A stretch of 33,211 bases of DNA from an uncultured Armatimonadota bacterium (GTDB lineage Bacteria > Armatimonadota > Fimbriimonadia > Fimbriimonadales > Fimbriimonadaceae), in assembly GCA_903833215.1 (NCBI GenBank), contig CAILEM010000079.1, positions 1 to 33,211 on the forward strand, written 5' to 3'. Position numbers and translations under genes: made by a program. The notes under the pieces are model-generated. The model ran no database searches. It worked only from the letters and a program-made list of their open reading frames with translations, and was not told where the DNA came from. This document shows, piece after piece, positions 2,706 through 33,211 of this stretch. How positions within the stretch are numbered: the stretch's first letter is position 1; each line of letters begins with the position of its first letter.

Positions 2706-4781
2706 TTATCGGCCACCAGCGTATCGCTTGAGCTTGCGCTTACCGGACCCTAGTTTTCCGTCCGACGTGCCGAGCAGGGCCCGAAGAGACTGAATCTCGT
2801 CGCGGACCGTCGCCGCCTTTTCGAACTCCATGGCCTTGGCGAGGTCTTTCATGTCTTTCTCGAGACCATCGATCAGGATGGGGATATCCTCCACTCGAAT
2901 CGGAGCGCCGTCCTTTCCGATCTTGGACCGAGTCTCCTCGCTGTACTGCGAGATGACTTCAGCGACGGCCTCTTGGCTCCTGACGGTTTCGCGAATAACC
3001 TTGAGAACGGTGGTTGGGGCCGTCCCGTGCTCCTCGTTATATCGCCTTTGGGTTTCACGGCGACGATTCGTTTCTTCTATCGCGCGCTGCATCGAGCCCG
3101 TCATCACGTCGGCGTACATGATGACCCGACCGTTGATGTTTCTTGCCGCACGTCCAATGGTTTGAATGAGGGAGGTTTCTGACCTCAGGAATCCTTCTTT
3201 GTCGGCGTCCAGGATGGCGACAAGGGTGACCTCCGGCAGGTCCAAACCTTCTCTCAACAGGTTCACACCGACGATGACATCGTACACGCCCAGACGTAAG
3301 TCGCGTAAGATTTCAGGGCGTTCGAGGGAGTGAACGTTTGAGTGGATATATTGAACTTTCACTCCGAGATCTTGAAGGTAACCCGTCAAGTCCTCCGACA
3401 TCTTCTTGGTGAGCGTCGTAACCAGCGTCCTCTGCTTGAGCTGCACTCGCTCCTGAACTTCACGGATCAAATCGTCGATTTGCCCCTTTGTGGGCCGAAC
3501 GTCAATCTCTGGGTCCACAACGTAAGTGGGTCGAATGATCTGTTCGACGACCTGACTCTCGGTTTCCTTTTCAAACGGGCCGGGAGTTGCACTTACGTAG
3601 ACGACCTGTGGGACTCGCTCCAGAAACTCTTCGAACTTGAGTGGTCGGTTGTCGAGAGCACTTGGAAGTCGAAATCCGTAGTCGACCAAAACGGACTTGC
3701 GCTGCTTGTCGCCGTTGTACATTGCCCTCACCTGCGGCAAGGTTTGGTGGCTCTCGTCGATGAAAACGATGGCATCGCTGGGTAAGAAGTCGAGCAGTGT
3801 GTATGGCGCGGTTCCGGGTGCTCGGCCATCGAAGTACCGCGAATAGTTTTCGATGCCGCTGCAGTAGCCGACCTCTTTCATCATCTCGATGTCGAAGTCC
3901 ACTCGCTGCCTAAGTCGTTGCGCTTCGAGGAGCTTGCCTTGGGCGGCGAACATGGCGCATTGAGCTTCCATCTCCGCTTTGATCAATTCGATGACGTCGT
4001 CCATTCGCTCCCACGGGGTTACGTAGTGGGTGGCGGGGAAGACAGAGACCTTCGTCGGCTCGTCGAGGACTTCCGCCGTGAGGGGGTCGAATAGTCGGAT
4101 TCGCTCGACGGTGTCGCCAAAGAACTCAACTCGGGTGACGATCTCCTCGTCCTTGGGCTGGATTTCGAGAGTATCACCTCGAACGCGGAACGTGCCACGG
4201 TCAAGCACCATCTCGTTGCGGGTGAACTGCATGGCAACCAGCTTCTTCAGGGCTTCGTCGAGATCGAACGTTCCACCCGTTTCGAAAGTCAAGACGGCTT
4301 CGGCGTACTCGCTCGGAGAACCCAGACCATAGATGCAGGACACCGATGCGACAACGATGATGTCACGTCGTTCAAGCAAAGCGTGGGTTGCGGCGTGACG
4401 TAACCGCTCAATCTCTTCGTTGGTCGAAGAGTCTTTCTCGATGTACAGGTCAGCTCCCGGAACGTACGCTTCAGGTTGGTAATAGTCGTAGTAGCTGATG
4501 AAGTACTGAACCGAGTTGTCGGGAAAGAAGGCCCGAAATTCCTGGCACAGCTGGGCAGCAAGGGTCTTGTTATGGGCAAGGATCAGCGCTGGACGTTGAG
4601 TCTCAGCGATCACGCTGGCCATGGTGTAGGTCTTGCCGGTACCGGTTGCGCCAAGCAGAGTCTGAAATCGATAGCCTGACTGGAGCCCCTCAACCAACCC
4701 CGCGATTGCGGTTGCCTGATCGCCCTTGGGCTCGAAGTCCTTGGAAATCACAAGGGGCTGATTGAACTGAACGATAGACAT
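2706..4781 (-). CDS. uvrB: Excinuclease ABC subunit B (UvrB)
   Basis: A 691-aa UvrB, the damage-verifying helicase-like subunit that joins UvrA and recruits UvrC in nucleotide excision repair. Full length for the family. Walker A GATGTGKT is at 44-51, the strand-clamping beta-hairpin (YYDYYQPEAYVPGAD) at about 97-111, DESH (Walker B) at 342-345, RPTKGQ at 429-434, LLREGLDLPE at 508-517 and QTIGRAARN at 540-548. The C-terminal UVR motif that contacts UvrC lies at about 633-668. The ATG at 4781 sits 10 nt after a perfect TATAAT on the same strand, which implies a nearly leaderless message and its own promoter, although modB lies upstream in the same direction. No LexA-like box was obvious. Confidence 0.98.
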   Translation of the reverse strand: MSIVQFNQPLVISKDFEPKGDQATAIAGLVEGLQSGYRFQTLLGATGTGKTYTMASVIAETQRPALILAHNKTLAAQLCQEFRAFFPDNSVQYFISYYDYYQPEAYVPGADLYIEKDSSTNEEIERLRHAATHALLERRDIIVVASVSCIYGLGSPSEYAEAVLTFETGGTFDLDEALKKLVAMQFTRNEMVLDRGTFRVRGDTLEIQPKDEEIVTRVEFFGDTVERIRLFDPLTAEVLDEPTKVSVFPATHYVTPWERMDDVIELIKAEMEAQCAMFAAQGKLLEAQRLRQRVDFDIEMMKEVGYCSGIENYSRYFDGRAPGTAPYTLLDFLPSDAIVFIDESHQTLPQVRAMYNGDKQRKSVLVDYGFRLPSALDNRPLKFEEFLERVPQVVYVSATPGPFEKETESQVVEQIIRPTYVVDPEIDVRPTKGQIDDLIREVQERVQLKQRTLVTTLTKKMSEDLTGYLQDLGVKVQYIHSNVHSLERPEILRDLRLGVYDVIVGVNLLREGLDLPEVTLVAILDADKEGFLRSETSLIQTIGRAARNINGRVIMYADVMTGSMQRAIEETNRRRETQRRYNEEHGTAPTTVLKVIRETVRSQEAVAEVISQYSEETRSKIGKDGAPIRVEDIPILIDGLEKDMKDLAKAMEFEKAATVRDEIQSLRALLGTSDGKLGSGKRKLKRYAGGR

Positions 4782-4863: not shown

Positions 4864-5613
4864 TTACTGCTTTCCGAACGCCCTAACGACAAGGATCGCG
4901 AGAAATGCGATTCCTAACATGATCGCCGAAAGTGTGATTGCTTGGTCTAGGTCGTTTTCCCATCCGATATAGATGGCGAGTGGCATTGTCTGGGTTCGGC
5001 CGGCGAGATTGCCGGCAAAAAGGATTGTCGCCCCGAACTCACCCAGAGCTCTCGCCCAAGAGGTTACGGCTCCACTAGCGAGTTGCGAACTGCACTGCGG
5101 CATAACAACTTTGGCGAAGACCTCAAGTGGTCGGGCTCCTTCGAGCGCGGCGCATTCTTCGATGCCGGTGTCAGTTGCCGAGAAAGCGTTGATTGCTGCT
5201 CGCAGGTAAAAGGGGCTGGAGACAAAGCACTGGGCCATGACGACCGCGATCGAGGTTGCCCCAAAACTGGTTGGAATCAGCCCCTCTCTACCAAACGCCA
5301 GAAGCAATGCGATGCCAGCCGCTGCCGGTGGAAAAACGATAGGAAGGTCGAAGAGCACGTTCACTGCCTTACGAAATGGGAACTGGTATCGCGCGATCGC
5401 GAACGCAAGGGGTGTTCCGAAGACGACGGTGACAACGATGCTTGCCAGGGATGTCTCAAAACTCAGACGAATCGCATCATTGAATTCGGAGGATGTGGCA
5501 ATTCGGTTCCCAACCGATTTGAGGATTAACGCGACGACGGGAATGGCCAAGAACGCCAGCAAAGGCAATCCTGCCAGGAGCCACCACCACCATCGGCCAA
5601 CAATTCGACTCAT
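4864..5613 (-). CDS. modB: Molybdate ABC transporter permease ModB
   Basis: A 249-aa inner-membrane permease that forms the molybdate channel and docks with the ModC ATPase. About six hydrophobic segments are visible. The cytoplasmic EAA loop is at about 153-171 (EECAALEGARPLEVF) and the family signature GEFGATILFAGN at 191-202, followed by RTQTMPLAIY. Its ATG overlaps the modA stop as ATGA (5610-5613), the classical sign of translational coupling. No ATPase gene follows: after an 82-bp gap the next gene is uvrB. ModC must be encoded elsewhere, or the permease must share another ATPase. Tungstate transport is a possible alternative specificity, but the neighbouring ModA-type protein favours molybdate. 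Confidence 0.93.
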   Translation of the reverse strand: MSRIVGRWWWWLLAGLPLLAFLAIPVVALILKSVGNRIATSSEFNDAIRLSFETSLASIVVTVVFGTPLAFAIARYQFPFRKAVNVLFDLPIVFPPAAAGIALLLAFGREGLIPTSFGATSIAVVMAQCFVSSPFYLRAAINAFSATDTGIEECAALEGARPLEVFAKVVMPQCSSQLASGAVTSWARALGEFGATILFAGNLAGRTQTMPLAIYIGWENDLDQAITLSAIMLGIAFLAILVVRAFGKQ

Positions 5614-6410
5614 GTGTGTTTCTTCGATTGGCTCGGCTGCCTCACGTTGCCCTTGACGGGGACTGGAGATCCGAATCCGTGCTTCATCAAGGCTTGTCGG
5701 GCCGCAGGTTGGAATAGGAAATCCGTGAAGGCACGTGCCAATGTCGAATTGGAGGAACCTCCAAACCGGACAACCGGATACATGGCGGTAACTGCGAAAC
5801 GCTCTGGTATCGGAATCAGGCGGACTTTGTTCTTAGCGGTCAAATAGTCGGTGACATAAACGATTCCAGCATCCGCTTCCTTGAGAGAGACCTTTGCCAG
5901 TACGGCACGAACATCTTGCTCCCGAGAAACGATCGCGCTATTAACCGAGTTCGCCCAGGATTGGCCGTACTCCGATTTTGCCTTGGCAAGCATTTCTTCG
6001 GCATACCTGCCAACCGGGACATGTCGGTCAGCAACGATGAGGCGAATGCCACTTGATAAGTCCCGAAGGGACCTCACCTTGCCTAAGCCGATAGGAACGA
6101 CGATTGCTAGGTGATTGGTGGCAAAAATGCGTTGCGAGGATCGGTCGTATCGTAGAGAGCGTAGCGATTCCGCACCGGCAGTGAGCAGCACATCGACAGG
6201 GGCTCCCTGACGAATCTGGGCTACGAGTAGTTGAGAACCTCCAAAATTGAGGTTGACCTTGCAGGTTGGATGCTGACGTTCAAACGAACGGGCTATTTCA
6301 GATACCGATTCCTTCAGTGACGCGGCCGCAAAAACGTTAAGCGACTGGGCGTGTACCGACACCGTGCCAAGCACCAAACCTAACCAGATCGTGCTCGCTC
6401 GGAATCTCAT
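5610..6410 (-). CDS. modA: Molybdate-binding periplasmic protein ModA
   Basis: A 266-aa periplasmic solute-binding protein that delivers molybdate to ModB. The signal peptide ends at about VHA-QS (21/22). The mature protein begins LNVFAAASL, the ModA hallmark containing an oxyanion-binding serine; FGGSQLLVAQIRQGAPVDVLL (starting at 56) matches the second ligand-binding block SS/GS...QI..GAP.D, and FGGSSNSTLARAFTDFL is the usual C-terminal hinge region. GGGGA lies just before the ATG as a fair ribosome-binding site. The last paralogue of the array stops 24 nt upstream on the same strand with no terminator between, so modA may be the distal part of a seven-gene transcript. No molybdenum-cofactor riboswitch fits in that gap. 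Confidence 0.93.
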   Translation of the reverse strand: MRFRASTIWLGLVLGTVSVHAQSLNVFAAASLKESVSEIARSFERQHPTCKVNLNFGGSQLLVAQIRQGAPVDVLLTAGAESLRSLRYDRSSQRIFATNHLAIVVPIGLGKVRSLRDLSSGIRLIVADRHVPVGRYAEEMLAKAKSEYGQSWANSVNSAIVSREQDVRAVLAKVSLKEADAGIVYVTDYLTAKNKVRLIPIPERFAVTAMYPVVRFGGSSNSTLARAFTDFLFQPAARQALMKHGFGSPVPVKGNVRQPSQSKKHT

Positions 6411-6434: not shown

Positions 6435-7664
6435 TTATTTGTGAACGGGCAGAACAATTGTCTTGGTCGAAACTTTCACCCGATTCGATATGCGAACGCG
6501 AATGGTGAGGTCGGGGATATCGGTGACTTTGGGGCGTCCCGCTTTCGTCTTGGCCTTGAGAATAGAGCGGAAGCCGCCCCTCGACACATTTTTAACATTG
6601 ATGGTCGCCAACTCGAGTTGAAGCGAGTCGAACCCCATTTCTTCAAGCGACGGGGAAATTCCAATAACTTCGCCAGGTCGCGTGTCGAGAATAATGTCCA
6701 AGGGAATGGGCTTGGTCTTAGGGGATGGGATTGCTGACCACAGGAGTTCCAGCGACTCATTGGACGGGATAGGCGCTGCCATTTGTTTTTGCCGATCGAT
6801 GGGAGCCTTGCTGTAACCGGTGACGCCAAGTCCCTGCATCTCACCCATGAGCTGCTTGTCTGGCAACCAAAGGTAATTTCTGCCGTTCGCCGTCACAATT
6901 TTGGCGTTCTTGTAATGGAATTCGAAGTCGTGTGGCACTCTGCGGTATCGCTTTAACATAACCTCGATCGCGTCGAGTCCATTCCATTCAGAACTGACTA
7001 TCCGTCCACGGCCTTCGCCATACCGACCATAGGATGTATCTTTTGTCGTCGCATACTCATCTATGTCTGGAGGGAGGGGATGGACGATTTTTACATCCAC
7101 TTGACCTTGATCGCGGTTTAGTTTCGCGGTTGCGATTTTTTCCACTGCTACGGCGGCAGATCCCGTTGGGGGAGTCAAAACGCGAACCGGTTCTGCAAAT
7201 TTTGAAATGTGAATGACTGAAGTTTTCTCACTGTGAAAGGAACTGGTGATCTTAACGTCAACCGTTTTTGGCTTGACCGCAAATCCACATTTGATACAGA
7301 CAACATTGATAGGACCCTTTGTCGTAATCGACGCCTGATAGTCGTTTCGCTCCGAATCTCTTGCCGACCTGACGATTGCCGGTAAAGGCGTGCCCTTCGA
7401 TTTGTCCTCAAATGTAAAAACTGCCACTGCGGCGTCTTCTGGGGTGCAGACATATTTAAAGACTTCGGAGCCATCGGGCCCCTTGACCCGAATGGTCTTT
7501 CCACTCATTGCTTCGTCTTCAGCCAGGATCTCAACTTTCGGATCGGGATCAGGAAATTGGCCATGCACACTTGCGACCTTTTCTGCTGGCTTTGGGAGGC
7601 TGAATAAAGCGGCAGCGATCACGACAATAGCAATGACAGCGACGGTAACCGATTGAATTTTCAA
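6435..7664 (-). CDS. Array paralogue 5 (most downstream): membrane-anchored protein of unknown family
   Basis: I do not recognise this family. The protein has one N-terminal hydrophobic segment (about 6-23 from the TTG) and an extracytoplasmic body predicted by eye to be mainly beta. Blocks shared with the four upstream genes: VEILAEDEAMSGKTI, a cysteine in KYVC (Cys73) followed by TPEDAA, GFAVKPKTVDV, FAEPVR..TPP, LPPD, KRYRR, YKNAK, the run LPDKQLMGEMQGLGV, SPSLEEMG and terminal TKTIVLPVHK. Extra cysteines occur in VCIKCGF. An open frame extends to a GTG at 7679, but TTG at 7664 aligns with the paralogue starts (MK-x-Q) and has GTGAGG 6 nt upstream, so I prefer it (409 aa). The modA start follows 24 nt after the stop. 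Confidence 0.8.
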   Translation of the reverse strand: MKIQSVTVAVIAIVVIAAALFSLPKPAEKVASVHGQFPDPDPKVEILAEDEAMSGKTIRVKGPDGSEVFKYVCTPEDAAVAVFTFEDKSKGTPLPAIVRSARDSERNDYQASITTKGPINVVCIKCGFAVKPKTVDVKITSSFHSEKTSVIHISKFAEPVRVLTPPTGSAAVAVEKIATAKLNRDQGQVDVKIVHPLPPDIDEYATTKDTSYGRYGEGRGRIVSSEWNGLDAIEVMLKRYRRVPHDFEFHYKNAKIVTANGRNYLWLPDKQLMGEMQGLGVTGYSKAPIDRQKQMAAPIPSNESLELLWSAIPSPKTKPIPLDIILDTRPGEVIGISPSLEEMGFDSLQLELATINVKNVSRGGFRSILKAKTKAGRPKVTDIPDLTIRVRISNRVKVSTKTIVLPVHK

Positions 7665-7679
7665 GAATAGCCTCACCAC

Positions 7680-7753
7680 CTATAGCGATAGGCTCCATCC
7701 AATGACGGAATGGATGGCAAGTTGGTTCTAGCAAGAACCCAGACACTGGGCTC
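7680..7753 (-). promoter_or_regulatory. Spacer with small hairpins between array genes 4 and 5
   Basis: Read on the minus strand the spacer has CCCAG-TGT-CTGGG, GGTTCT-TGCT-AGAACC and CCATCCA...TGGATGG in succession. None has a T-run, so they are not clear terminators. CATTCCGTC in this spacer also occurs in the spacer upstream of gene 4, probably a trace of the duplication. Confidence 0.3.
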
Positions 7754-8974
7754 TTACTGATGGACGGGCAGGATGATTTCCTGTGTCGATACCTTCTCTT
7801 GGTGCGTCATGAGCACCTTGATCCTTAATTCTTGGATCTCCGCTTTCTTAGGAAGTTCAGACTTTTTTGTTGCCTTTATCATCGCGCTAAGGCCCGCACG
7901 GTATCGGTTGTCGATATTTCCGCTGGCTAGATTGAGCCGGAGCGAATCTAGCCCCATATCTTCGATACTCGGGGAAATCGCTGCAACTTGACCCATCGAA
8001 TAGCCTCCATTGGGGTCCTGTAAAGTTGCGTGGGTCTTGGGAAATGGAATAACAGACCAAGCCAAATCCAGTTGCTGATTGGAAGGGAGATTCTTCCGGG
8101 CACTCTTGCCTTTCTCGGCTGGCGCGCGATTTCCACCCATAACACCTAGGCCCTCCATTTCACCCATCAGTTGCTTCGTTGGCAACGAAAGGAAGTTGGT
8201 TCCATTTAAGTGAAGGACTTTGGCATTCTTGTAGATCAGCTCATATTCGATAGGAATCCTTCGATACCGACGGAGCCGTACTCTCACGGCGTCGGGGCAA
8301 TCGGCCAGGATGCCGAAGCCCATGATGGCGGGTCCAAAAGAAGTGTCGAGTAAGTCAACATATTCCACCATATCGGGGGGAAGGGGCCGGACAACTTTTA
8401 CATCGATGTACTTGCGATCCCTAACGAATGTTGCACGGGCGATTTTTTCAGCCGCAGCGGCTTTTGCGCCACGTGGAGGTACGAAGAGGCGAACGGGATC
8501 TGCAATTTTCGAGAGAGGAATAGTGACTTCTTTGGAACCTAGAACATGCCCATTACCGACGTTGACATTGACAACTTTGGGTTTGACCGCAAATTCACGC
8601 TTGAGAGACAGGACGCAAATGGGGCCTCCTACGCTGATCGACGCCGAGTAATCACGCTGATTCGTATCCTTTGCCGACTTTATCATCGCTGGGATTGCCT
8701 CGCCACTCTCCTTATCGCGAATCGTAAAGACGGCGATGGCAGCATCGTCGGCGGTGCAGGTGTACTTAAGAGCCTCGGCACCGCTGGCTCCTGATATGCG
8801 GATGATTTTCCCCGGCGTGGCCTCCTCTTGTGCCAGTACATCCACTTGAAAGTCTGGGTCTGGGAGCCTCGGTGGCCCATGAGGAGGTTCAGCGGTCGAT
8901 CGTCGATTGATCAGGATTGCGGCAGCGACAGCCACAACGACGATAATGGGTACATAGATGGTTTGCGGTTTCAA
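7754..8974 (-). CDS. Array paralogue 4: membrane-anchored protein of unknown family
   Basis: A 406-aa protein of the same unrecognised family. A single hydrophobic segment at about 6-22 (IYVPIIVVVAVAAAILI) is followed by an Arg-Arg pair and a proline-rich linker, with no clear signal-peptidase site, so it probably stays anchored with its body outside the cytoplasm. Conserved blocks: FQVDVLAQEEATPGK (42-56), KYTC with Cys73, RDKESG, FAVKPKVVNV, KIADPVR..VPP (156-167), PLPPD (197-201), RLRRYRR, IYKNAK (247-252), KQLMGEMEGLGVMG (267-280), SPSIEDMGLDSLRL, ending ILPVHQ. It is closest by eye to paralogue 5. The start codon is TTG, aligned with paralogues 3 and 5. A 106-bp spacer separates it from paralogue 3. 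Confidence 0.8.
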   Translation of the reverse strand: MKPQTIYVPIIVVVAVAAAILINRRSTAEPPHGPPRLPDPDFQVDVLAQEEATPGKIIRISGASGAEALKYTCTADDAAIAVFTIRDKESGEAIPAMIKSAKDTNQRDYSASISVGGPICVLSLKREFAVKPKVVNVNVGNGHVLGSKEVTIPLSKIADPVRLFVPPRGAKAAAAEKIARATFVRDRKYIDVKVVRPLPPDMVEYVDLLDTSFGPAIMGFGILADCPDAVRVRLRRYRRIPIEYELIYKNAKVLHLNGTNFLSLPTKQLMGEMEGLGVMGGNRAPAEKGKSARKNLPSNQQLDLAWSVIPFPKTHATLQDPNGGYSMGQVAAISPSIEDMGLDSLRLNLASGNIDNRYRAGLSAMIKATKKSELPKKAEIQELRIKVLMTHQEKVSTQEIILPVHQ

Positions 8975-9080
8975 TTCAATCCATTCCGACGGAAGTGTTC
9001 AATGTGCCTAGACGCCGTTCTCTTTCACGACGGAATGAGAGGCTCGAACGTTCTTCGAATCGGATTGTGATTGCTGCTGT

Positions 9081-10322
9081 TTACTTGTGAACGGGCAGAA
9101 CGAGGGTTCGGGATGAGATCTTTTGAAGGTGCGTAATGCGAACTCGAAACTCAATTTTGGGGATGTCTATCACAAGGGGATGAGTCGATTTTTGCTGAGA
9201 CCGCAAAACTTCGGTAAAGCCGCTGAATCGTCGACCTTGCATGAACGCATCGTTAAGCGAAACCCGTAGAGTGTCCAACCCCAAGTCATCGATTTTCGGC
9301 GAAACACTCAGCAACTCCAACTCCGGTGGTGGCACGGCTTTCGTAGGGTCAACTCTCTCGCCGCGCTTGCGCCGGAATTTCCATTGAAGTTCAATGACCT
9401 GGTTGGATGGAGGGGACTGGAGACGGTGTCCCCCAAATTCCAGCGGCGGCTTGTTGGAAGCGACGATTAAGGCTCCCTCTATTTGTCCGAGTTCTTGCCG
9501 CTTGGGTAGGGAAACGAAGTTCCTTCCATTCACTTTCACGAGCTTCGCGTCTTTGTAAGTCAGAACCACTTCGCGACTCTGTTTGTGGAATCGGTCGAGG
9601 CGAACCTTTACGGCATCAATGCTTACAGCGGACGTGTTTGGCAACGGCCAAAAGCCGAAGGGTCGGCGAGGGAGGATGAACGGGAAATAAGATGAATCCA
9701 CCAAAACTGCTTTTTCGACTTGATCGGGCGGCAACGGTGTGCGACATTCCACCGTCACGAAGGTCCGGTCGTGGTTTAATTTGGCAAAAGCTGATTTCTC
9801 AGCTTCGGCAGTAGTTGTATCCGGTGGAGGGACTACGTCACGAACTGGGTCGGCAATGTCCTCGATCCGAATGGTCCCTCGCCGGCGGCCGGTCACTCCA
9901 GCATTCGCGATTTCGACATTGACCGCGTCTGGCTTGGTCGAGAATCCCCTTTTAAGGGCAAGAACCTTTACGGGGCCATTCGACATCACAACCCCAAGGT
10001 AGTTTCGGGAGACCATATCTCGAGCGGTTGAAACTGCTGCTCTCAAACTCTGACCGCGGAACTTATCGCGCATCGTGAAAATCGCAATTGCCGCGTCATC
10101 GGGGGCACAAACATACTTCATGACCTCGGAGCCGTTGGGATCTGTGACCTTAAACACCTTTCCTGGAGTTGCTTTCTCCTGTTGGAGAACGTCCAGTTGA
10201 AAATCTGGATCATAAAAGTTGTAGCCATTCCAATGTCGGCGGTGTGACCGAGGAATGCTAAATACTCCGGCGATCGCCGCAGCGAAAACGACGATCGCAA
10301 TGGTGATGGTTTGGACCTTCAA
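9081..10322 (-). CDS. Array paralogue 3: membrane-anchored protein of unknown family
   Basis: A 413-aa member of the family. The hydrophobic anchor is at about 5-22 (TITIAIVVFAAAIAGVF). Conserved blocks: FQLDVLQQEKATPGKV (41-56), KYVC with Cys72, APDDAAIAIFTMRDK (73-87), VKVLALKRGF (118-127), IEDIADPVR (153-161), PLPPD (196-200), DAVKVRLDRF, YKDAK, NFVSLP..QELGQIEG, SPKIDDLGLDTLRV, ending SSRTLVLPVHK. The TTG start overlaps the stop of paralogue 2 as TTGA (10319-10322), which points to coupled translation of the two. The stretch between conserved blocks at about 210-232 is Pro/Phe-rich and specific to this copy. Confidence 0.8.
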   Translation of the reverse strand: MKVQTITIAIVVFAAAIAGVFSIPRSHRRHWNGYNFYDPDFQLDVLQQEKATPGKVFKVTDPNGSEVMKYVCAPDDAAIAIFTMRDKFRGQSLRAAVSTARDMVSRNYLGVVMSNGPVKVLALKRGFSTKPDAVNVEIANAGVTGRRRGTIRIEDIADPVRDVVPPPDTTTAEAEKSAFAKLNHDRTFVTVECRTPLPPDQVEKAVLVDSSYFPFILPRRPFGFWPLPNTSAVSIDAVKVRLDRFHKQSREVVLTYKDAKLVKVNGRNFVSLPKRQELGQIEGALIVASNKPPLEFGGHRLQSPPSNQVIELQWKFRRKRGERVDPTKAVPPPELELLSVSPKIDDLGLDTLRVSLNDAFMQGRRFSGFTEVLRSQQKSTHPLVIDIPKIEFRVRITHLQKISSRTLVLPVHK

Positions 10323-11644
10323 TGCTTACTCAAAGGTGTCGTCGGGGCCACGCGTTGCAGCCTTCGATGCACGGGGAGAAGTACCGTTTTAGAGGAAACG
10401 TTTGACTGCGTCACCGCTCGGATGCTAATTCGCAACTCGGGAATGGTGCGAACCAGTGCGGTGCTAGAAGGATTCGTTGAGTGGATTGTACTGTCGAGAC
10501 CGCTGACGGGTCCGCCAGACAAGAGGGCCCCTGGGATGACGATGCGAAGAGAACCGAGTCCCATCTCAGCAACCGTCGGTGTGATAGAGACAAGCTCTAG
10601 CATTGGGATCTTGATGCGGTGACTGGGCGGTGCACCTGGCCGCAGATTTTCCTTAGGGTTCCAACGGAAAGTGAGCGTTTGGTTGTTAACATGGGCACCC
10701 GGTTTCGAACTTTTTTGGGTCGTGCTTGGGGCTGTGTTTCCAATCATGAGCGTGTGTCCGTCGACGGTGCCGACATCCTGCATAACCGGAAGTGAGAGGA
10801 AGTTATTCCCGCCTATCTGGATGATTTGTGCATTTCTGTAAATCAGGGTTGAAGCAACGTAGTCATTTTTCTTGCGGTCGATTCGCACTTTGACGGCGTC
10901 GATATTCTCAATGTAGTGCGGAGGCAAGCTGTAATAGACTTCGCCCATAGGAAGGTAAGTGGAGTCAATGATCGATGGTATTTCGAATTGGCCTCGCGGT
11001 GGCTTTTCTTTGAGCGTAATTTCTACGTAGCCACGATCGACGTGCAGATCGGCTCTCGCAACCTTTTCAGCTTCGACGAGTTCTTTGCCTTGGGGCGGTG
11101 ACAGGTGTCGAATGGGATCAGCGATTTCGGTGACTTGGAGGCTCTCGGGCTTGGAGCCATCGGCTTCGTCACTTTGAAATTTGACTTCAACTCGTGACGG
11201 CTTCTTAGCGAAGCCTCTTTTAAGTGCCAGCACTTTGACGGCGCCTGAACCGGACTCAATCGTGGCGAAGTACTCTCGGCCCTCGGGATCCTGAATTGTC
11301 GTGATTGTAGGAAAGACATCTGCACCGTTGGCAATATTCCTCATCGTGAACAGAACGATGGCGGCATCCTCGGGTTTGCACTTGTACTTGAGGAGTTCAA
11401 CCCCATGTTCATCTTGGGCTTGAATGACTTTTCCTGGCACCGCAATTTCCTGCCTGATAACATCTACTTGGAACCTAGTGGGCTTTCGCCTAACAGGCAC
11501 GAAATTTCCAATCTGCTTCAGGATTCTGCGTGCGTCGGGTAACTCGTCCGGCTTGATGGCAAAAACCCAGATCGCACTCAACCCTAATACGAGAGTCAAG
11601 CTGATGACGAGGACCTTGAGCTTGGTTTCGTTCAGTCTGGGCAA
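10319..11644 (-). CDS. Array paralogue 2: membrane-anchored protein of unknown family
   Basis: The longest member, 441 aa. The anchor is at about 9-29 (LKVLVISLTLVLGLSAIWVFA). Conserved blocks: FQVDVIRQEIAVPGKVI (58-74), LKYKC with Cys89, KPEDAAIVLFTMRN, VKVLALKRGFAKKP, ITEIADPIR-type block, RGYVEITLKEKPP, DAVKVRIDRK, IYRNAQ, NNFLSLPVMQDVG, TPTVAEMGLGSLRI, and SSKTVLLPVH. Unlike its relatives it carries 12 or so extra residues (RRLQRVAPTTPLSKH) after the LPVH motif. The start is TTG with GAGGA 7 nt upstream, a good ribosome-binding site. A 47-bp spacer follows paralogue 1. Confidence 0.8.
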   Translation of the reverse strand: MPRLNETKLKVLVISLTLVLGLSAIWVFAIKPDELPDARRILKQIGNFVPVRRKPTRFQVDVIRQEIAVPGKVIQAQDEHGVELLKYKCKPEDAAIVLFTMRNIANGADVFPTITTIQDPEGREYFATIESGSGAVKVLALKRGFAKKPSRVEVKFQSDEADGSKPESLQVTEIADPIRHLSPPQGKELVEAEKVARADLHVDRGYVEITLKEKPPRGQFEIPSIIDSTYLPMGEVYYSLPPHYIENIDAVKVRIDRKKNDYVASTLIYRNAQIIQIGGNNFLSLPVMQDVGTVDGHTLMIGNTAPSTTQKSSKPGAHVNNQTLTFRWNPKENLRPGAPPSHRIKIPMLELVSITPTVAEMGLGSLRIVIPGALLSGGPVSGLDSTIHSTNPSSTALVRTIPELRISIRAVTQSNVSSKTVLLPVHRRLQRVAPTTPLSKH

Positions 11645-11691
11645 AGTGGATCCTCGAAAATCGATGCGGGAACGAACAGGCCGCCTATTCG

Positions 11692-12954
11692 TTAATGTGC
11701 AACGGGAAGTGTGATCGTCTTTGAGCTTATCAAATGTCGCCGTGATTCCGTCACTTCAAGGCGAAACTCCGGGATGATTCGCCTTTGAACGTAAGTATCC
11801 CTTTTGGCCGGCGCAAATACGCCCGAAAACCCAACCGATTGGCCGTCAATATTTTTGCTAGGAAGGTCCACTTTCAAAATATCGACCCCTATGGACTCGG
11901 GAGCAGGAAAGAGGCGGTTGACCTTGAGGTAGCAAGGTTCGGCGGTACGTAAGGATTTGCGATCTTTCTGCGGAGAGTCAGTGGCCCATTTGAAGACCAA
12001 GGGCTGGGTAACGCGCAGGGATTTCGTCACTCTATGTTTGCTTTGTTTTGGAAGCGAATTCTGGAGGGTGATTTTCCGCCCATGAATTGAGCCAACGACC
12101 TGCTGTTGCTTGAACAGCAGGAAGCTGTCTTTGTTGGACTCAACGACTTCGGCATTACGGTAGATCAATGCGTACGGAATCGTCTCGTTCTTGAATCGAT
12201 CTATCCTGACCTTCACCGCTTGCATTTCCTTTCCGTAAAACGGAGGAAGTGGCGAATGCACTTCATCTGGCATGCAGTAGCTTGTTCCTAGTTGCGTAAC
12301 CGACTCGGATTCATCCCTCGGAAGTTGACTCCGAAGTCGGATATCGACGTCTCCAGATTTGGGATTCCACCTTGCTGACGCCATCTCAAGAGCTTGCCGA
12401 GCCTCGCTCGCAGTCGGAGGCGGAACAAAAAGAGTTGGGTCGGCTATTTTAGTGAGGTTCACAGTTACGAATTGCCGTGAGCCCGCATAACTACCGGAAA
12501 GGGTCACCGAAACAGACTTGGGCGTGCGACTGAAACCGCGTTTCAACAGGAGTAAAGTGGCACCGCCCAAAGGGAAAGGATCCACTCGGTAAGCATTACC
12601 TTCAGCGTCAACGGCTGATTGGACACTTGGGACGATGTGCGTTTTGTCAAACGGGTCGTCTGCGGTAATAATCGCGAGCGCAGCATCGTTCGGTCCGCAG
12701 ACATACTCCGATTCCTTGGGATCGTCTTTAGAGGTGAGTTGAAGCCGCATGCCCGGAAAGGCAGGGTACTGTTGCATCACGTGAACTGCCATAACAGACC
12801 GGCGTCGGTTGATCTCCTCGTTTTCGCCATCCCGCAATTTCACAAAGCCGACGACCAATACCGTGATCATTACGATGATCGCGATGTTCTCTGAGCGGCT
12901 CAGTGGCTTTGTAATGCGAAGAGGCATAGAAAGAAGTGATCCTTTAGGTGACAT
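11692..12954 (-). CDS. Array paralogue 1 (first gene): membrane-anchored protein of unknown family
   Basis: A 420-aa protein, the most divergent member and the presumed first gene of the transcript. The anchor lies at about 23-38 (NIAIIVMITVLVVGFV). Recognisable family blocks: EYVC with Cys86, GPNDAALAI, LLLLKRGFSRTPKSVSV, TKIADPTLFVPPP, QAVKVRIDRFK, LIYRNAEVV, QQQVVGSIHG, APESIGVDILKVDL and terminal SSKTITLPVAH. ATG at 12954 gives the longest form; an internal ATG at 12927 (residue 10) has AAAGGA 12 nt upstream and is an equally reasonable start. The 117-bp region upstream is shared with the divergent Vps10-like gene and should contain the array promoter. Confidence 0.75.
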   Translation of the reverse strand: MSPKGSLLSMPLRITKPLSRSENIAIIVMITVLVVGFVKLRDGENEEINRRRSVMAVHVMQQYPAFPGMRLQLTSKDDPKESEYVCGPNDAALAIITADDPFDKTHIVPSVQSAVDAEGNAYRVDPFPLGGATLLLLKRGFSRTPKSVSVTLSGSYAGSRQFVTVNLTKIADPTLFVPPPTASEARQALEMASARWNPKSGDVDIRLRSQLPRDESESVTQLGTSYCMPDEVHSPLPPFYGKEMQAVKVRIDRFKNETIPYALIYRNAEVVESNKDSFLLFKQQQVVGSIHGRKITLQNSLPKQSKHRVTKSLRVTQPLVFKWATDSPQKDRKSLRTAEPCYLKVNRLFPAPESIGVDILKVDLPSKNIDGQSVGFSGVFAPAKRDTYVQRRIIPEFRLEVTESRRHLISSKTITLPVAH

Positions 12955-13071
12955 TGAATTCGACGCTAAATTGAAGTCCCAGGGTTCTGGTGGTTTGTCG
13001 TGACCATATAAGTGAGATTCTCAGAGATTTCTTGCGAATTCTGGGAAGGCACCAAGGTAGAACGATTCCTA
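12955..13071. promoter_or_regulatory. Divergent intergenic region driving the array (minus) and the Vps10-like gene (plus)
   Basis: Plus-strand TATAAG (13007-13012) and minus-strand TTATAT overlap at the same AT-rich spot, both without convincing -35 boxes. An 11-bp odd palindrome TGAGATTCTCA sits at 13013-13023 next to them and could be an operator. Functional assignment is tentative. Confidence 0.3.
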
Positions 13072-16008
13072 ATGCGTTCTTACCATTGGCTGCCCTTCCT
13101 TTCGGCACTCTGCCTAGCCAGCATCGCAGTAGCCCAGGTTGATCCGGACGAAGCTCCGGATGGTCCATCGAAACGCCTTTCAAAACAAGAACAGCGTCAG
13201 AAATTCCATCCAACTGCGATCAAAGGAATGCCTGCGTCCGTGTGGCAGGATGGATACAAGACACACCTGAAACTGGAATCAGAGAGCCCATTTGGTGGCA
13301 TCGCATGGCGAAGCGTCGGTCCCGAAAAGCAGAGTGGTCGTGTCAATGTTATTACGGCAGCAGCAGGGGACCCGAGCAAGCTCTATGTCGCTTTTGCGAC
13401 AGGGGGCCTTTGGCGAACAGATGATGATGGAGCGACTTGGACGTCTCTTTTCGATAACCAAAGCGCATTCAGCATAGGAGCGGTGACGCTCAGTCGAGAT
13501 GGCAAAACGATTTGGGTTGGAACCGGGGAAGAGAACAGCCAGCGAACAAGTTATGCGGGCACGGGTGTTTTCAAGAGCACGGATGCCGGCAAAACATGGC
13601 AATGGATGGGGTTGCCGGAGAGCCACCATATCGGCAAGATCGTCATTGACCCTAAGAACGAGAACATTGTTTATGTCGCCGCGCTAGGTCACCTCTATTC
13701 CGATAACCCAGAGCGAGGCGTTTACAAAACCATAGATGGTGGGAAGTCTTGGGACCAGGTCCTCAAGGTTGATGCATCTACCGGCGCCGTTGACATGGTC
13801 CTTGATCCTCGCAACCCCAGCATCGTCTACGCGAGCATGTGGCAGCGCCACCGTCACGCTTGGGACTTTCTTGAGAGTGGCCCAGGAAGCGCACTCTATA
13901 GATCATCCGACGCAGGAAAGAACTGGAGAAAAGTCTCTGACGTACCTTCGGGTGATGCTGCCGGCAGAATTGGCCTCTCCATTTGCACAAGTCATCCCGA
14001 CACCGTGTATGCATTCGTCGACAATCAATCGGAAGACGATGGTTGGGCAGATATGGACGAAACGGTGCCGTCGGGTCGATTGACTCCACGGCGATTTGTA
14101 CACCTTGACGAGGAAAAAATTATCCAATTCGACAAGGCGAAACTTACGACGTTCCTCCACGCCTACGATAAAGATATGAAGGTGGATGACGTCCTTCAGC
14201 AGATTAAGGATAAAAAACTCACCGTCCTTCAACTGACTGAGCGACTCAAAGAAAAGTCGCCCAATGCATTTTCAGCAGAAACGGGAGCAGAGCTTTATCG
14301 GACAGACGATGCCGGTAAGTCTTGGCATCGAACGGACCGTGGCCAGTTTGGGGCGTTTGGCGGCTACTACTGGGGCAAAGTCTGGGTGAACCCCAGCGAC
14401 GCGAATGATGTGTACGTGATGGGACTACCATTGCTCCGATCAAAGGACGGCGGTAAGAACTGGACATCCGTTTTCCAGCGGGCGCACGTCGACTATCACG
14501 CAGTCTGGAACGATCCTCGGGATCCCCGGAAAGTGTGGGTGGGCAATGACGGTGGCTTGTACCTGTCTTTTGATGGTGGAACGACCATTCGCCACTTGAA
14601 TAACCTCGCCGTCGGGCAGAGCACAACGCTCGCCGTCGACAACAAGACGCCCTACAACATCTACACGGGTCTCCAGGATAACGGAACCATGAAGGGACCA
14701 AGCAGTTATCGGCCTGGAGTGAGTGATCCCAATCTGTGGAAAGAAATTTTTGGTGGAGACGGCAGTTGGGTTGCTGTCGATCCTCGGAATGACGGCGATA
14801 CTGCCTACGTCGCCTATCAGTTTGGTGAGCACTCAGCGATCAGCCAGGTCAATGGCAGTTCGTGGGGTGTTCGGGCGGAGCCGCCCAAAGGCGATCCTGC
14901 TCCTCGATGCAACTGGATCTCTCCGCTTGTGATCTCTCCGCACGCCCCAGACATTTTGTATTTGGGTGCCCAGCGACTCTATCGGTCGTTTGACATGGGG
15001 CATAAGTACAAGCCGATCTCCTCCGATCTCACAAAGAACAAAACGAACGGCAATGTGCCATTTTCGACAATCAAAGACGTGAGCGAGAGTCCCGTCCGGT
15101 TTGGCCTGATCTATGTCGGATGCGATGATGGCAATGTTCAGGTAACCCAAGATGGCGGATATCAGTGGACAGCGATCCCGACGCCGACGCCAGATAAATG
15201 GGTCTCACGGGTCGTGGCAAGCAAGTGGGATGAGAAGACCGTTTATGTCGCTCAAAGCGGATATCGCGAGGATGATTTCGCTCCGTACTTGTGGAAATCC
15301 ACGGACTTTGGCAAGACTTGGAAGTCGATCGTAGGCAATCTGCCGACCGAGACGGTGAACGTCATCCGCGAGGATCCGAATCGCAACGACGTGTTGTATG
15401 TCGGAACCGATATGGGCGTCTACATCACTTTTGATGGCGGCACAACGTGGGAAATCCTCAACGGGAGCCTTCCTCACACTCCGGTACATGACCTCGTTGT
15501 TCAGGCATCTGAGAAGGATCTTGTTATTGCCACTCATGCCCGCAGTGTCTGGGTGCTTCACCTCAACAAGATCTTGAGCATTACTCCCGAGCTACGCAAA
15601 ACCGATTTGAAACTCGACTCTGTCGATGACATGACGACATCGAATACTTGGGGCTACGACCGGAAGGAGAGGTGGGATACCTCGGCTCCTCGGGCCCCGA
15701 AGGTGACTGGTGCCTTTTGGACCAAAGAGGCGGGGAAGGCGACTTTCGTGATCAAAGACAAGGCTGGCAAGGAAGTGAAGAAGAAAACTTTCGATGCTGT
15801 GAGAGGGTTTAACGATCTCACAATTGACCTTGAACTCACCGCGGCCAAACCTTCCACGCAAAAGAAGATCAAGTTGGCGAAAGCCGACGATGTGCTCGTT
15901 GATCCCTACTTGTCCGATCGAGCCACGTATGTGCCGGTTGGGGAGTACACGCTGGAGTTGACGGTGGGAAGTCATACCGTGACCCAGAAGTGGAAAGTTA
16001 CGAAGTAG
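13072..16008 (+). CDS. Secreted Vps10/sortilin-like BNR-repeat beta-propeller protein
   Basis: About 978 aa from the ATG at 13072, which opens a clean signal peptide (MRSYHWLPFLSALCLASIAVAQ). The frame is open back to a GTG at 13012, but that would put 20 charged residues before the signal, so I reject it. The body is a chain of Asp-box (BNR) motifs, S/T-x-D-x-G-x-T-W: STDAGKTW, TIDGGKSW, SSDAGKNW, TDDAGKSW, SKDGGKNW, STDFGKTW, TFDGGTTW, in a pattern like the ten-bladed Vps10/sortilin N-domain; such proteins are often labelled glycosyl hydrolase although catalysis is usually unproven. The last 150 or so residues form a Lys-rich region with a beta-sandwich look (KATFVIKDKAGKEV...YTLELTVG). An internal charged helix at about 340-400 interrupts the propeller. 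Divergent from the paralogue array; no close downstream partner. Confidence 0.88.
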   Translation: MRSYHWLPFLSALCLASIAVAQVDPDEAPDGPSKRLSKQEQRQKFHPTAIKGMPASVWQDGYKTHLKLESESPFGGIAWRSVGPEKQSGRVNVITAAAGDPSKLYVAFATGGLWRTDDDGATWTSLFDNQSAFSIGAVTLSRDGKTIWVGTGEENSQRTSYAGTGVFKSTDAGKTWQWMGLPESHHIGKIVIDPKNENIVYVAALGHLYSDNPERGVYKTIDGGKSWDQVLKVDASTGAVDMVLDPRNPSIVYASMWQRHRHAWDFLESGPGSALYRSSDAGKNWRKVSDVPSGDAAGRIGLSICTSHPDTVYAFVDNQSEDDGWADMDETVPSGRLTPRRFVHLDEEKIIQFDKAKLTTFLHAYDKDMKVDDVLQQIKDKKLTVLQLTERLKEKSPNAFSAETGAELYRTDDAGKSWHRTDRGQFGAFGGYYWGKVWVNPSDANDVYVMGLPLLRSKDGGKNWTSVFQRAHVDYHAVWNDPRDPRKVWVGNDGGLYLSFDGGTTIRHLNNLAVGQSTTLAVDNKTPYNIYTGLQDNGTMKGPSSYRPGVSDPNLWKEIFGGDGSWVAVDPRNDGDTAYVAYQFGEHSAISQVNGSSWGVRAEPPKGDPAPRCNWISPLVISPHAPDILYLGAQRLYRSFDMGHKYKPISSDLTKNKTNGNVPFSTIKDVSESPVRFGLIYVGCDDGNVQVTQDGGYQWTAIPTPTPDKWVSRVVASKWDEKTVYVAQSGYREDDFAPYLWKSTDFGKTWKSIVGNLPTETVNVIREDPNRNDVLYVGTDMGVYITFDGGTTWEILNGSLPHTPVHDLVVQASEKDLVIATHARSVWVLHLNKILSITPELRKTDLKLDSVDDMTTSNTWGYDRKERWDTSAPRAPKVTGAFWTKEAGKATFVIKDKAGKEVKKKTFDAVRGFNDLTIDLELTAAKPSTQKKIKLAKADDVLVDPYLSDRATYVPVGEYTLELTVGSHTVTQKWKVTK

Positions 16009-23480: not shown

Positions 23481-23726
23481 GACGCTACTTCAGCAATTCC
23501 TAAATGCGTTAAGCATTTTCACGGTTAACGATGAAAAATCATGCCGAGAAATGACCTAAGGGGTATTGGGTAATTTCAGAAGTTCTGACACGGAAAGCCG
23601 CCTTCTGATTGCGTCTATTTCAACTCAAATAGATGCTGAAATGTGAGGTTCTTACTCCTTTTTGAGCCTCTGATCAGTCTTTGCTTTACTGGACGGATTA
23701 AATCCGAATCCAGACTAGTGATTTAC

Positions 23727-26700
23727 ATGGTCAGTGAGGTTCCTAACCCATCTCCGCGCAACGGCGAAAACCGTCCTTGCCTTAAGTCTATTAATTCATT
23801 AGCCAGGAATCGATGCCTCCGGTTAATCAGTCTTGCCGCTTGCTCGTTGCTGGCTTTGAGCGCGAGCGCTCAACTCTCCCAGTCTGCCTGGCCCAAGTTT
23901 CACGGCAGCCCTTACAACAGTGGGCTCTCGGCAGCTTCTGGGGCCACCAACGTGCTCAAGTGGACCTTCAAGACCGGGAACTCGGTTGTGTCCTCACCGG
24001 CAGTTGGCCCGGATGGCACAGTGTACGTTGGCTCGAATGACGGCAACCTCTATGCTTTGAATGGAGCGACAAGGAGCAATCAATTGGTTCTTCGCAACGG
24101 GTGGGCCCGTCATTTCCTCGCCAGCCATCGCAAAAGACGGCACGGTTTACGTCGGTTCAAATGACGGCAACTTGTACGCAGTGAATGGATCGACCGGAAC
24201 TGCGAATTGGGCTTTTAGCGCGGGTGCGGCCATTGAATCGTCGCCAACGATTGGCACGAATGGCAACATTTACTTCGGAGCCGATAACGGCACTGTGTAC
24301 GCGCTGAACCCGACGACAGGTGGAGCCAACTGGACGTTCTCAACAGGCGGCAATGTGGTGTCCTCACCGTCTCTTGGGAATGATGGAACGGTCTATGTGA
24401 GTTCTGAGGATGGCAATGTCTATGCCCTAAACGGTGTGCTCGGAACCGAGAACTGGGTTTTTCAGTCGGGTGCCCCCATCGAGTCTTCTCCGGCAGTGGG
24501 CCTGAACGGCAATGTCTATGTGGGTTCAGATGACGGTACGGTGTACGGGCTTAACGGCACTACTGGAGCAATGATCTGGGAGCGAGCCGTTTACGCGCAG
24601 TTTGTAAACACATCGCCTGCCATCGGCCCTGACGGCACAGTGTTCATCGGAGCAAACTCCAACCTCGGGTTCTTCTATGCCATTGACGGTGCCACCGGAG
24701 CTGTCAAGTGGAACTTCGCCAGTGGCCAGTATGTCGAATCGTCTCCTGCCGTCGCTGCGGATGGAACGGTCTACTTCGGTGGCTCCACGAGTTCAGGAAC
24801 GGGCGTGATCTACGCTCTGAACGGCACGACTGGTGTCCAAGAGTGGGCATTTGGAACCGGGGATACGTCAGGCATTTTCTCCTCGCCAGCGATAGGTGGG
24901 GACGGCACCGTCTATTTCGGCTCCAATGACGGCAACGTCTACGCCCTCGTAGGTGTTCACGCACAGTCGCTAGGCATCTATCCATACGAGATTACCGGTG
25001 GCAACTCGACACTCGGAACCGTGTCTATCAGCGCACCTGCACCTGCAGGCGGTGTCACCGTTTCACTCGCTAGCGACACGGCATCGGTAGTTGTTCCGGC
25101 TACGGTTTTGATCCCGGCTGGGCAGTCTGTCGCCACGTTCACTATTTCGACTTCGGCAGTGGATGCCTACACTTCGGCAAAGATCACGGCATCCTTTGGT
25201 GTGATTTTGTCCGCTACTCTCACAGTAGATCCAGCATCCGTCTGGTCATTAACACTCGATCCATCCTCGCTGTTGGGAGGTTCCTCCTCGACGGCGACGG
25301 TTACACTTGATGGCCCAGCAGGCCCATCTGGAGTGGTGATCAATCTCTCTTCGAATAACATCGCAGCGACGGTGCCTAATTCGATCACTTTCGAACCGGG
25401 CCAGACTTCAGGCACCTTCACTGTCTCAACGACGGCGGTAACGGGCCAGGTTTCCGCAGACATCACGGCTGCGATCGGCGGGACATCTCAGACAGCGACG
25501 CTCAAGGTCTTGTCACCGGCGGTGCTCTCACTGACATTGGCTCCCCCAACGCTTACCGGCGGCAGCACTTCGACGGGTACGGTAACCATCAATGCACCAG
25601 CTGGACCTGATGGTGTGGTCGTCTCGTTGTCAACTGGCACGACTACAGCGACAGTGCCCCCTACGGTTACGATTGCCCCAGGCGACACAACGGCCACTTT
25701 CCCAATCACAACGGCAAGCGTCAGCAACCAGACAACGGTGGTCGTCACCGCTGCGATCGGTGACAACTGGCAGACAGCGAACTTGACGATTAATGCTCCG
25801 CAATTGGTCTCAATCTCTCTCAGCCCAGATTCAGTGGCACAGGGTGCTTCGACGACGGGAACGGTGACGATCAACGGACCCGCACCATTCAGCGGTGTTG
25901 TGATTCTACTGACGAGCAATAACTCGTCGGCGAGAGTTCCAACCTCAGTCACGATCGGATCCGGACAAACCTTTGCCACGTTCCCTGTAACAACATCCAC
26001 GGTGACCAAGCAGGCCGTAGCTGTTATCACCGGTTCGGTAAACGGCAGCGTGCAAAGCACCAACCTAACGCTGATGACGCTGGGTGTGTCTTCGATCACA
26101 CTTAATCCGTCAACGGTTGCCGGTGGGACCGCAGCGACAGGAACGGTGACTCTGAACGGAATTTCTCCAAAGGGTGGCACGGTTGTTCTCCTAACGAGTA
26201 ACTCTCCTTGGGCTCGCGTTCCGTACTCGGTTTACGTGGCGGCTGGAAAGGTCAGTGTTGTGTTTAACGCGACAACATCGCCGGTGGCAACCCAGAAGGT
26301 GGTTACGATTACGTGCAGGGTCGGGAGCTCGACTCCGTCAGCGACTTTGACGATCACGCCTCCAACGGTGGTCGCGGTCAGTCTCAAGCCATCAACGGTC
26401 CCGGGCGGGAAGTCCTCGGTTGGCACGGTTACCTTAAGCAGCCCAGCCGCAGCCGGCGGCGCAGTCGTTCAGCTTTCCAGCAGCAATTCGGTCGCTACTG
26501 TTCCGACAACGGTAACGGTTGGCGCTGGTGGCACGAGTGCTACATTTACTGTGAAGACATCGGCAGTGGGTGGGCAAGCTACCTCCACGATCAAGGGTAG
26601 TTTGAACGGAGGATCGGCCTCAGCGACCTTAACCGTTACCTCGCCTGTCATCGTGTCGCTGAAGTTGAACCCGGCGACTGTCGTTGGCGGAAAGTCTTCG

Positions 26701-26925
26701 ACGGGAACGGTGACCGTTAGTTCTGCGGCTCCAACCGGTGGTTTGGTAGTCTCCTTGGCCAGCACCTCCGGCTCCGCCACCGTGCCCGGCTCCGTGACGA
26801 TCGCAGCCGGAAAGACGTCGGCGACGTTCTCGGTCGCAACGACGAAAGGCAGTGGCAAGACCACGGCAACCATCACTGGAACGCTTGGGACTTCCGCAAA
26901 GGCGGCGGTTCTGACGATTAACTAA
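23727..26925 (+). CDS. Secreted PQQ-propeller / Ig-like repeat protein, interrupted by a single-base frameshift
   Basis: Repaired, this is a 1065-aa exported protein: a signal peptide (hydrophobic core LISLAACSLLALSASAQ), eight PQQ-type propeller blades with the pattern W-x-F-x-TG...SSPA(V/I)G.DGTVY.GS.DG..YALNG.TG, then seven Ig-like repeats of about 93 residues. In frame one, after LYALNGAT, an extra A at 24071/24072 changes ACA-GGA-GCA to ACA-AGG-AGC; the first frame runs out at 24164 while the second is open from 24061 to 26925 and continues blade 1 into blade 2 exactly. PQQ-type blades in such proteins usually act as an eight-bladed scaffold rather than an enzyme, and I see no catalytic signature; likely surface or extracellular. 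ATG 23727 was chosen because it precedes the signal peptide; GTG 23643 is an alternative. If the base is real the product is truncated. Confidence 0.82.
24961..26922 (+). repeat. Seven tandem Ig-like (Calx-beta-like) coding repeats of about 280 bp
   Basis: Each unit encodes about 93 aa with the plan S-L-x-L-x-P-x-x-V-x-GG-x-S-x-TGTVTL-x-x-PAP-x-GGVVV-x-LSSN, then ATVP-x-SVT-x-AG-x-TSATF-x-V-T, then IT-x-x-x-G-x-x-x-x-ATLT(V/I). The last two units are lysine- and serine-richer than the first. This domain often occurs in tandem in large adhesin-like surface proteins, where it acts as a stalk. Confidence 0.85.
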
Positions 26926-30567: not shown

Positions 30568-30576
30568 GAGAGTTAT

Positions 30577-32805: not shown

Positions 32806-32860
32806 GGCTAACTCGTCGGAGGTTACCGCCAAAAACGCCGCCGGTGTTTTGTCCACAAAG

Positions 32861-33211
32861 CCCAGTGTTGAGCCCCGCAAGGGGTGTTCGCTGGGTTATT
32901 GCATGGACCCAATCTAAAACCCTGAAGGGGTTTCGTCCCTGACTGTTCAGATATGTCTCGCCTCAGGGTTTGCGACGCTTGGCTGCGACCCGACCCAAGG
33001 TGGCAATGCAGCCTTCGGCCCTCGGGACGGAACACTTTCAGCGTTCGGGATGGTGGGTGATTGAAGGTGTCCCAGGGTAGCTTCGCAACCCTAGTAAGTT
33101 AATGAGCGGGACCACTCGGGACCAAGCCGCGTTCAACCCTTGAAGTTTAGCTTCGTAGCCCAGATCGCGGACCCGAGTGCGCTCACGGTTTCGGATGACT
33201 ATCGTGGAAGT
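32861..33211. repeat. Palindromic repeat cluster at the window end
   Basis: No supportable gene lies from 32806 to the end, but the stretch is dense in hairpins: CCCAG...CTGGG (32861-32895) enclosing CCCC-GCAA-GGGG with a GNRA-type tetraloop, ACCCTGA/TCAGGGT (32919-32969), and the paired motifs GTAGCTTCG at about 33077 and TTAGCTTCG at about 33149. It resembles the 22.2/23.4 kb elements in style but shares no long sequence with them. The promoter of the GH2-GH127 operon should lie in 32806-32860 or within this cluster; none was clear. Confidence 0.6.

Follow-up and report, generated by a model that had tools for sequence, protein, structure and literature searches.

Some bacterial lineages carry tandem clusters of genes for paralogous lipoproteins or for surface proteins with an anchor, the lpl clusters of staphylococci being an example, and tandem orphan immunity genes occur in contact-dependent antagonism systems. 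The window analysed here, 33,211 nucleotides from an uncultured member of the Armatimonadota, carries on its minus strand, at 6435-12954, a head-to-tail run of five intact paralogues of 406-441 aa each. These belong to a real, previously unnamed protein family that is undescribed in the searched libraries, has a narrow distribution and has an anatomy of a known general kind. With a probability of roughly 40%, the genes may be read as old tandem duplicates of a genus-restricted orphan family of tethered two-domain proteins, forming an envelope binding or assembly set without fixed partners.

Five paralogues in one run upstream of modA

In order of transcription the genes, all on the minus strand, are P5 (11692-12954), P4 (10319-11644), P3 (9081-10322), P2 (7754-8974) and P1 (6435-7664), each encoding a transmembrane-anchored family member. 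The TTG start of P3 and the stop of P4 share 4 bases. The frame of P1 is open from a GTG at 7679, but the TTG at 7664 is the more likely start, because GGTGGTGAGG lies ahead of it and its register matches that of the P2 and P3 starts. Taking 7664 as the start of P1, the intergenic spacings going downstream from P5 to P1 are 47, -4, 106 and 89 bases. A further 24 bases separate P1 from a modA-like binding protein gene (SBP_bac_11; 5610-6410, minus strand), which in turn overlaps a modB-like permease gene (BPD_transp_1; 4864-5613, minus strand) by 4 bases. The spacing from P5 through P1 and modA to modB is operon-like, as the run had been called from its sequence, which falls short of proving an operon. 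Promoter-like sites in the region number 6, where 5.8 are expected from shuffles.

The similarity among the five is far above chance. A search of the bacterium's own genome with P2 recovers P1 at 46% identity (E 8e-109), P3 at 40% (E 1e-85), P4 at 35% (E 2e-59) and P5 at 30% (E 4e-37). The sequence-only reading had described five consecutive paralogous minus-strand genes of 406-441 aa, with the last three transcribed most alike and the first most divergent. The open reading frames and this search agree with the description, and search and tree alike place P1-P3 closest together and P5 furthest away. A sixth copy lies outside the window, at G000:C72:42622-43890, and with the members found in three related genomes the family numbers 12, all with full-length open frames.

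The same reading had recognised no known family in these proteins, and the library searches concur. Pfam, NCBIfam, PHROGs and PADLOC gave no match at curated cut-off or significant E-value, only sub-threshold matches of single members, and PDB sequences gave no match. The profiles of the two predicted domains described below show no relationship to each other.

Predicted architecture and the conserved cysteine

Each window copy has one hydrophobic N-terminal segment, with a mean hydropathy of 2.2-2.7 against less than 1.4 elsewhere in those proteins; in P2 the transmembrane segment is residues 4-22. None of the five, nor the sixth copy, carries the lipobox cysteine of a bacterial lipoprotein. 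In two relatives, L010 (VSGC) and L007 (LCGC, unusual at -2), lipobox-like cysteines replace the transmembrane segment. The single hydrophobic segment, together with these cysteines, suggests that the body of the protein lies outside the cytoplasm, in the periplasm or at the cell surface. The charges flanking the segment do not fix the topology, P2 and P3 being slightly more positive after it.

An anchor, one cysteine and a fixed order of motif blocks had been proposed as the common anatomy, and hydropathy and alignment uphold it with small exceptions. In the motif Y-x-C-x-x-D-A-A, the cysteine (residues 72-89) and the aspartate are invariant in P1-P5. The block ADP(V/I)R..PP is found in P2-P4, and is AEPVR in P1 and ADPTL in P5; LPPD is found in P1-P3, and is LPRD in P5 and PPRG in P4. 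Y(K/R)NA is present in four of the five copies (YKDA in P3), TxxLPV likewise in four (EIILPV in P2), and SP..E.MG in a loose form in all. Across all 12 members, the residues that are invariant besides the start are G55, C73, D77, D103, G271, P335, G341 and L402 (P2 numbering). The invariant cysteine is the sole conserved one. P4 and the sixth copy possess no other, which excludes an intrachain disulfide as a family-wide feature. No hypervariable patch that might mark a specificity surface was found, strands and loops differing little in conservation.

An AlphaFold model of full-length P2, the reference copy, made from a 12-row alignment, has a pLDDT of 82.8. It begins with an N-terminal helix and a linker of low confidence; an Ig-like sandwich follows at about 38-157, in which the model places the invariant Cys73, and then a C-terminal all-beta region (158-406). 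Ten residues of the first domain are invariant or nearly so. Superposed on known chains, this domain (38-160) finds its best Ig-like partner at Z 7.1 (rmsd 4.3, 107 aligned) and many others, aligned over about 90-107 residues, at Z 5-7; all stay below 8, and such scores are common for unrelated models. Pfam and PDB profile searches reveal no similarity to Ig-like domains. The C-terminal domain, predicted alone, has a pLDDT of 85.8 and long strands; its best structural match has a Z of only 3.8. For neither model did Foldseek find a PDB match at E 0.001, and the C-terminal model gave no viral match either. The absence of a structural match does not amount to proof of a new fold. It could be imagined that this domain has an all-beta fold not seen before and that the five paralogues build a disulfide-linked hetero-oligomer of the envelope, found in this Fimbriimonas lineage alone, a combination that would be improbable.

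A family variably present at conserved loci

With a profile of the 12 members, the family is found in four of the 20 genomes of the window's genus, Fimbriimonas in the broad sense, and in no other genome of the phylum (291 searched), a count that leaves out short spurious matches. There are six copies in the window's own genome, three in G012, two (unlinked) in G004 and one in G019. A profile of the first domain, run against 85 genomes of the taxonomic family, agrees with this distribution. No relatives were found among plasmids or viral contigs, nor by two pattern scans of 84,980 bacterial and archaeal species, which reach close relatives only. The matches set aside as spurious include those in G026 and G032, which lie inside a conserved coiled-coil gene and cover about 63-77 profile positions at 15-17 bits, and one of the same size in G131. 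Another, in G251, is a short partial match within a protein of repeated beta domains, and the matches at E 0.02-0.9 in other members of the genus are of the same short kind. In an AroC tree of eight genomes the four carriers fall, weakly, on one side of a branch (56/64). This grouping fits a single origin of the family, a point that the esterase tree does not resolve.

The array lies in a conserved neighbourhood. The gene order is uvrB (2706-4781, minus strand; about 93% identical in G004, G012 and G019), modB, modA, the five copies, a divergent gene for a Sortilin-Vps10/BNR repeat protein (13012-16008, plus strand; also a marker of the locus in all three relatives), a HAD hydrolase gene and a hybrid sensor kinase gene. 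G004 has the same order from uvrB to the BNR gene (contig C62), with one family copy, bearing a lipobox-like cysteine, in place of five. In G012 and G019 modAB occupies the interval from uvrB to the BNR gene but no family gene is present there, and their family copies are single and elsewhere; compared with the window and G004, modAB is inverted in both (L043, L044). At 266 aa, the modA product of the window is shorter than its relatives in G004, G019, G012, G007 and G017, which have about 355-366 aa. The longer proteins (for example L029 10066-11166 and L043 9165-10247) are extended at the C-terminus by about 100 aa, a stretch that matched nothing in Pfam in the two scanned. A 19-pair inverted repeat at 2656-2699, between uvrB and a convergent DEAD-box helicase gene, is probably a shared terminator.

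Proximity to modA raises the idea that the array is an accessory of ModAB, for instance a tethered receptor or scaffold that aids capture of molybdate or tungstate. The operon-like run ending 24 bases before modA would fit such a role, as would the single copy in the same position in G004. However, G012 and G019 keep modAB at the locus without a family gene whilst carrying family genes elsewhere, and G007, G016 and G017 have a modA relative and no family member at all. Rfam finds nothing in the window, such as a molybdenum-cofactor riboswitch. The link to modAB thus holds in two of the four family-bearing species and fails in the other two, rather than being constant across genomes as for a ModABC component, and an accessory role is hard to credit. 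Similar arrays beside modAB might have been expected in related genomes; what exists is the lone copy in G004, and no comparable multi-copy array. One copy there, and none at the locus in G012 or G019, argue that the array is a lineage-specific tandem expansion rather than a modAB component.

Two further loci show the same pattern. At the first, the window's own genome (C72), G004 (C57) and G012 (C72) have one copy each beside a carboxylesterase gene, in a shared gene block that includes GH127; G019 has the carboxylesterase-GH127 block without the family copy. At the second, beside aroC, a copy is found in G019 only. Within the window, genes for GH127 and GH2 family glycoside hydrolases adjoin at 28105-32880, and relatives of this GH127 gene also adjoin the sixth copy and the corresponding copies in G004 and G012. 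Also in the window, at 23830-26925, a PQQ/ACSF4-type beta-propeller gene is apparently split by a frameshift near 24070, the repeat continuing from the frame at 23643-24164 into a different one at 24061-26925; a sequencing error or a broken gene is possible.

By gene order, members of the family come and go one gene at a time between conserved neighbours, and the window's lineage has a tandem set of them at modA. The 12 copies are not surrounded by direct repeats suggestive of mobility, and no common upstream or downstream motif among them exceeds shuffles. Patchy single genes and a tandem array of diverged copies would also be seen if the products were immunity or self-recognition proteins. 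However, no toxin or secretion gene is recognised beside any copy and PADLOC gives no match, leaving this a very improbable account.

In the protein tree, P1 and P2 pair (100/97) and are joined by P3 (98/97), and all copies at the modA locus, that of G004 included, group together (86/90). The position of the G004 copy relative to P4 and P5 is not settled, and holding the window's five together gives a p-AU of 0.096. Its placement leaves room for some of the duplications to be older than the split from G004, with loss there. The three esterase-locus copies do not form one clade (p-AU 0.006), possibly because of long branches or replacement.

Between pairs of window copies pS is 0.75-0.82, which is saturation, and pN is 0.36-0.53. 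Saturated synonymous sites together with restrained replacements imply old copies on which selection acts at the protein level, and DNA repeats within the array amount to short degenerate similarity only, which argues against recent conversion. Frame-disrupting decay would have told against the sequence-only reading, and it is absent. The narrow distribution, and the absence of copies from the same loci in sister species, could still be taken to mean that the duplicates of this orphan gene are neutral to selection or in decay. With every member full-length and replacement changes fewer per site than the saturated synonymous ones, this is the least credible explanation considered.

That five diverged copies should all stay intact in one run, with synonymous sites saturated, could alternatively mean that each is a separate obligate subunit of a single hetero-oligomer at the surface or in the periplasm. 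The invariant lone cysteine could form intermolecular disulfides in such an assembly, and the strand lengths of the C-terminal model would suit it. The idea is weakened by G019, where one copy per genome suffices, and by G004, whose two copies are unlinked; the family as such does not come as a fixed set of several subunits, and obligate subunits are therefore unlikely. The sequence-only reading had also put forward binding proteins of differing specificity as a possible account of the array.

Proposed role and relation to known systems

The preferred reading, of old duplicates forming a set of tethered envelope proteins, can be drawn out as follows. Each protein comprises an N-terminal tether, a short variable linker, one predicted Ig-like sandwich and a larger predicted all-beta C-terminal domain. 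The Ig-like domain may act as a stalk, possibly cross-linked through the invariant cysteine, whilst the C-terminal domain may bear the binding or assembly surface. The copies at the modA-BNR locus would have arisen by repeated duplication of one ancestor or a few, and divergence of sequence with retention of architecture would then yield related proteins for binding or assembly in the envelope, with no need for a fixed set of partners. Judged by anatomy, the role of a member is most likely that of a tethered envelope binding or assembly protein.

The family adds an unnamed, structurally modelled group of proteins to a poorly studied phylum, and offers a clear difference in copy number, from one to five, at a fixed locus in related species. 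It may serve as an entry point to how lineage-specific envelope proteins arise and diversify, a matter of modest general interest as long as function is lacking.

Three known systems bear comparison. The ModA/ModB molybdate ABC transporter shares strand and operon-like spacing with the family in the window and G004, but the family is no transporter component by sequence, and G012 and G019 lack it at their modAB locus. Generic Ig-like domains, such as those of the DUF4426 protein PA0388, the MG domains of alpha-2-macroglobulin, the S-layer protein SbsC and filamin repeats, superpose on the first domain at Z 6-7, within reach of unrelated models; profile searches of Pfam and PDB show no sequence similarity to it, and the attached C-terminal domain has no match above Z 3.8. 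Clusters such as the staphylococcal lpl genes are likewise tandem sets of paralogues that have diverged, are tethered at the N-terminus and differ in copy number from one close relative to the next. Family libraries showed no sequence relation, and the window copies have transmembrane tethers instead of lipoboxes.
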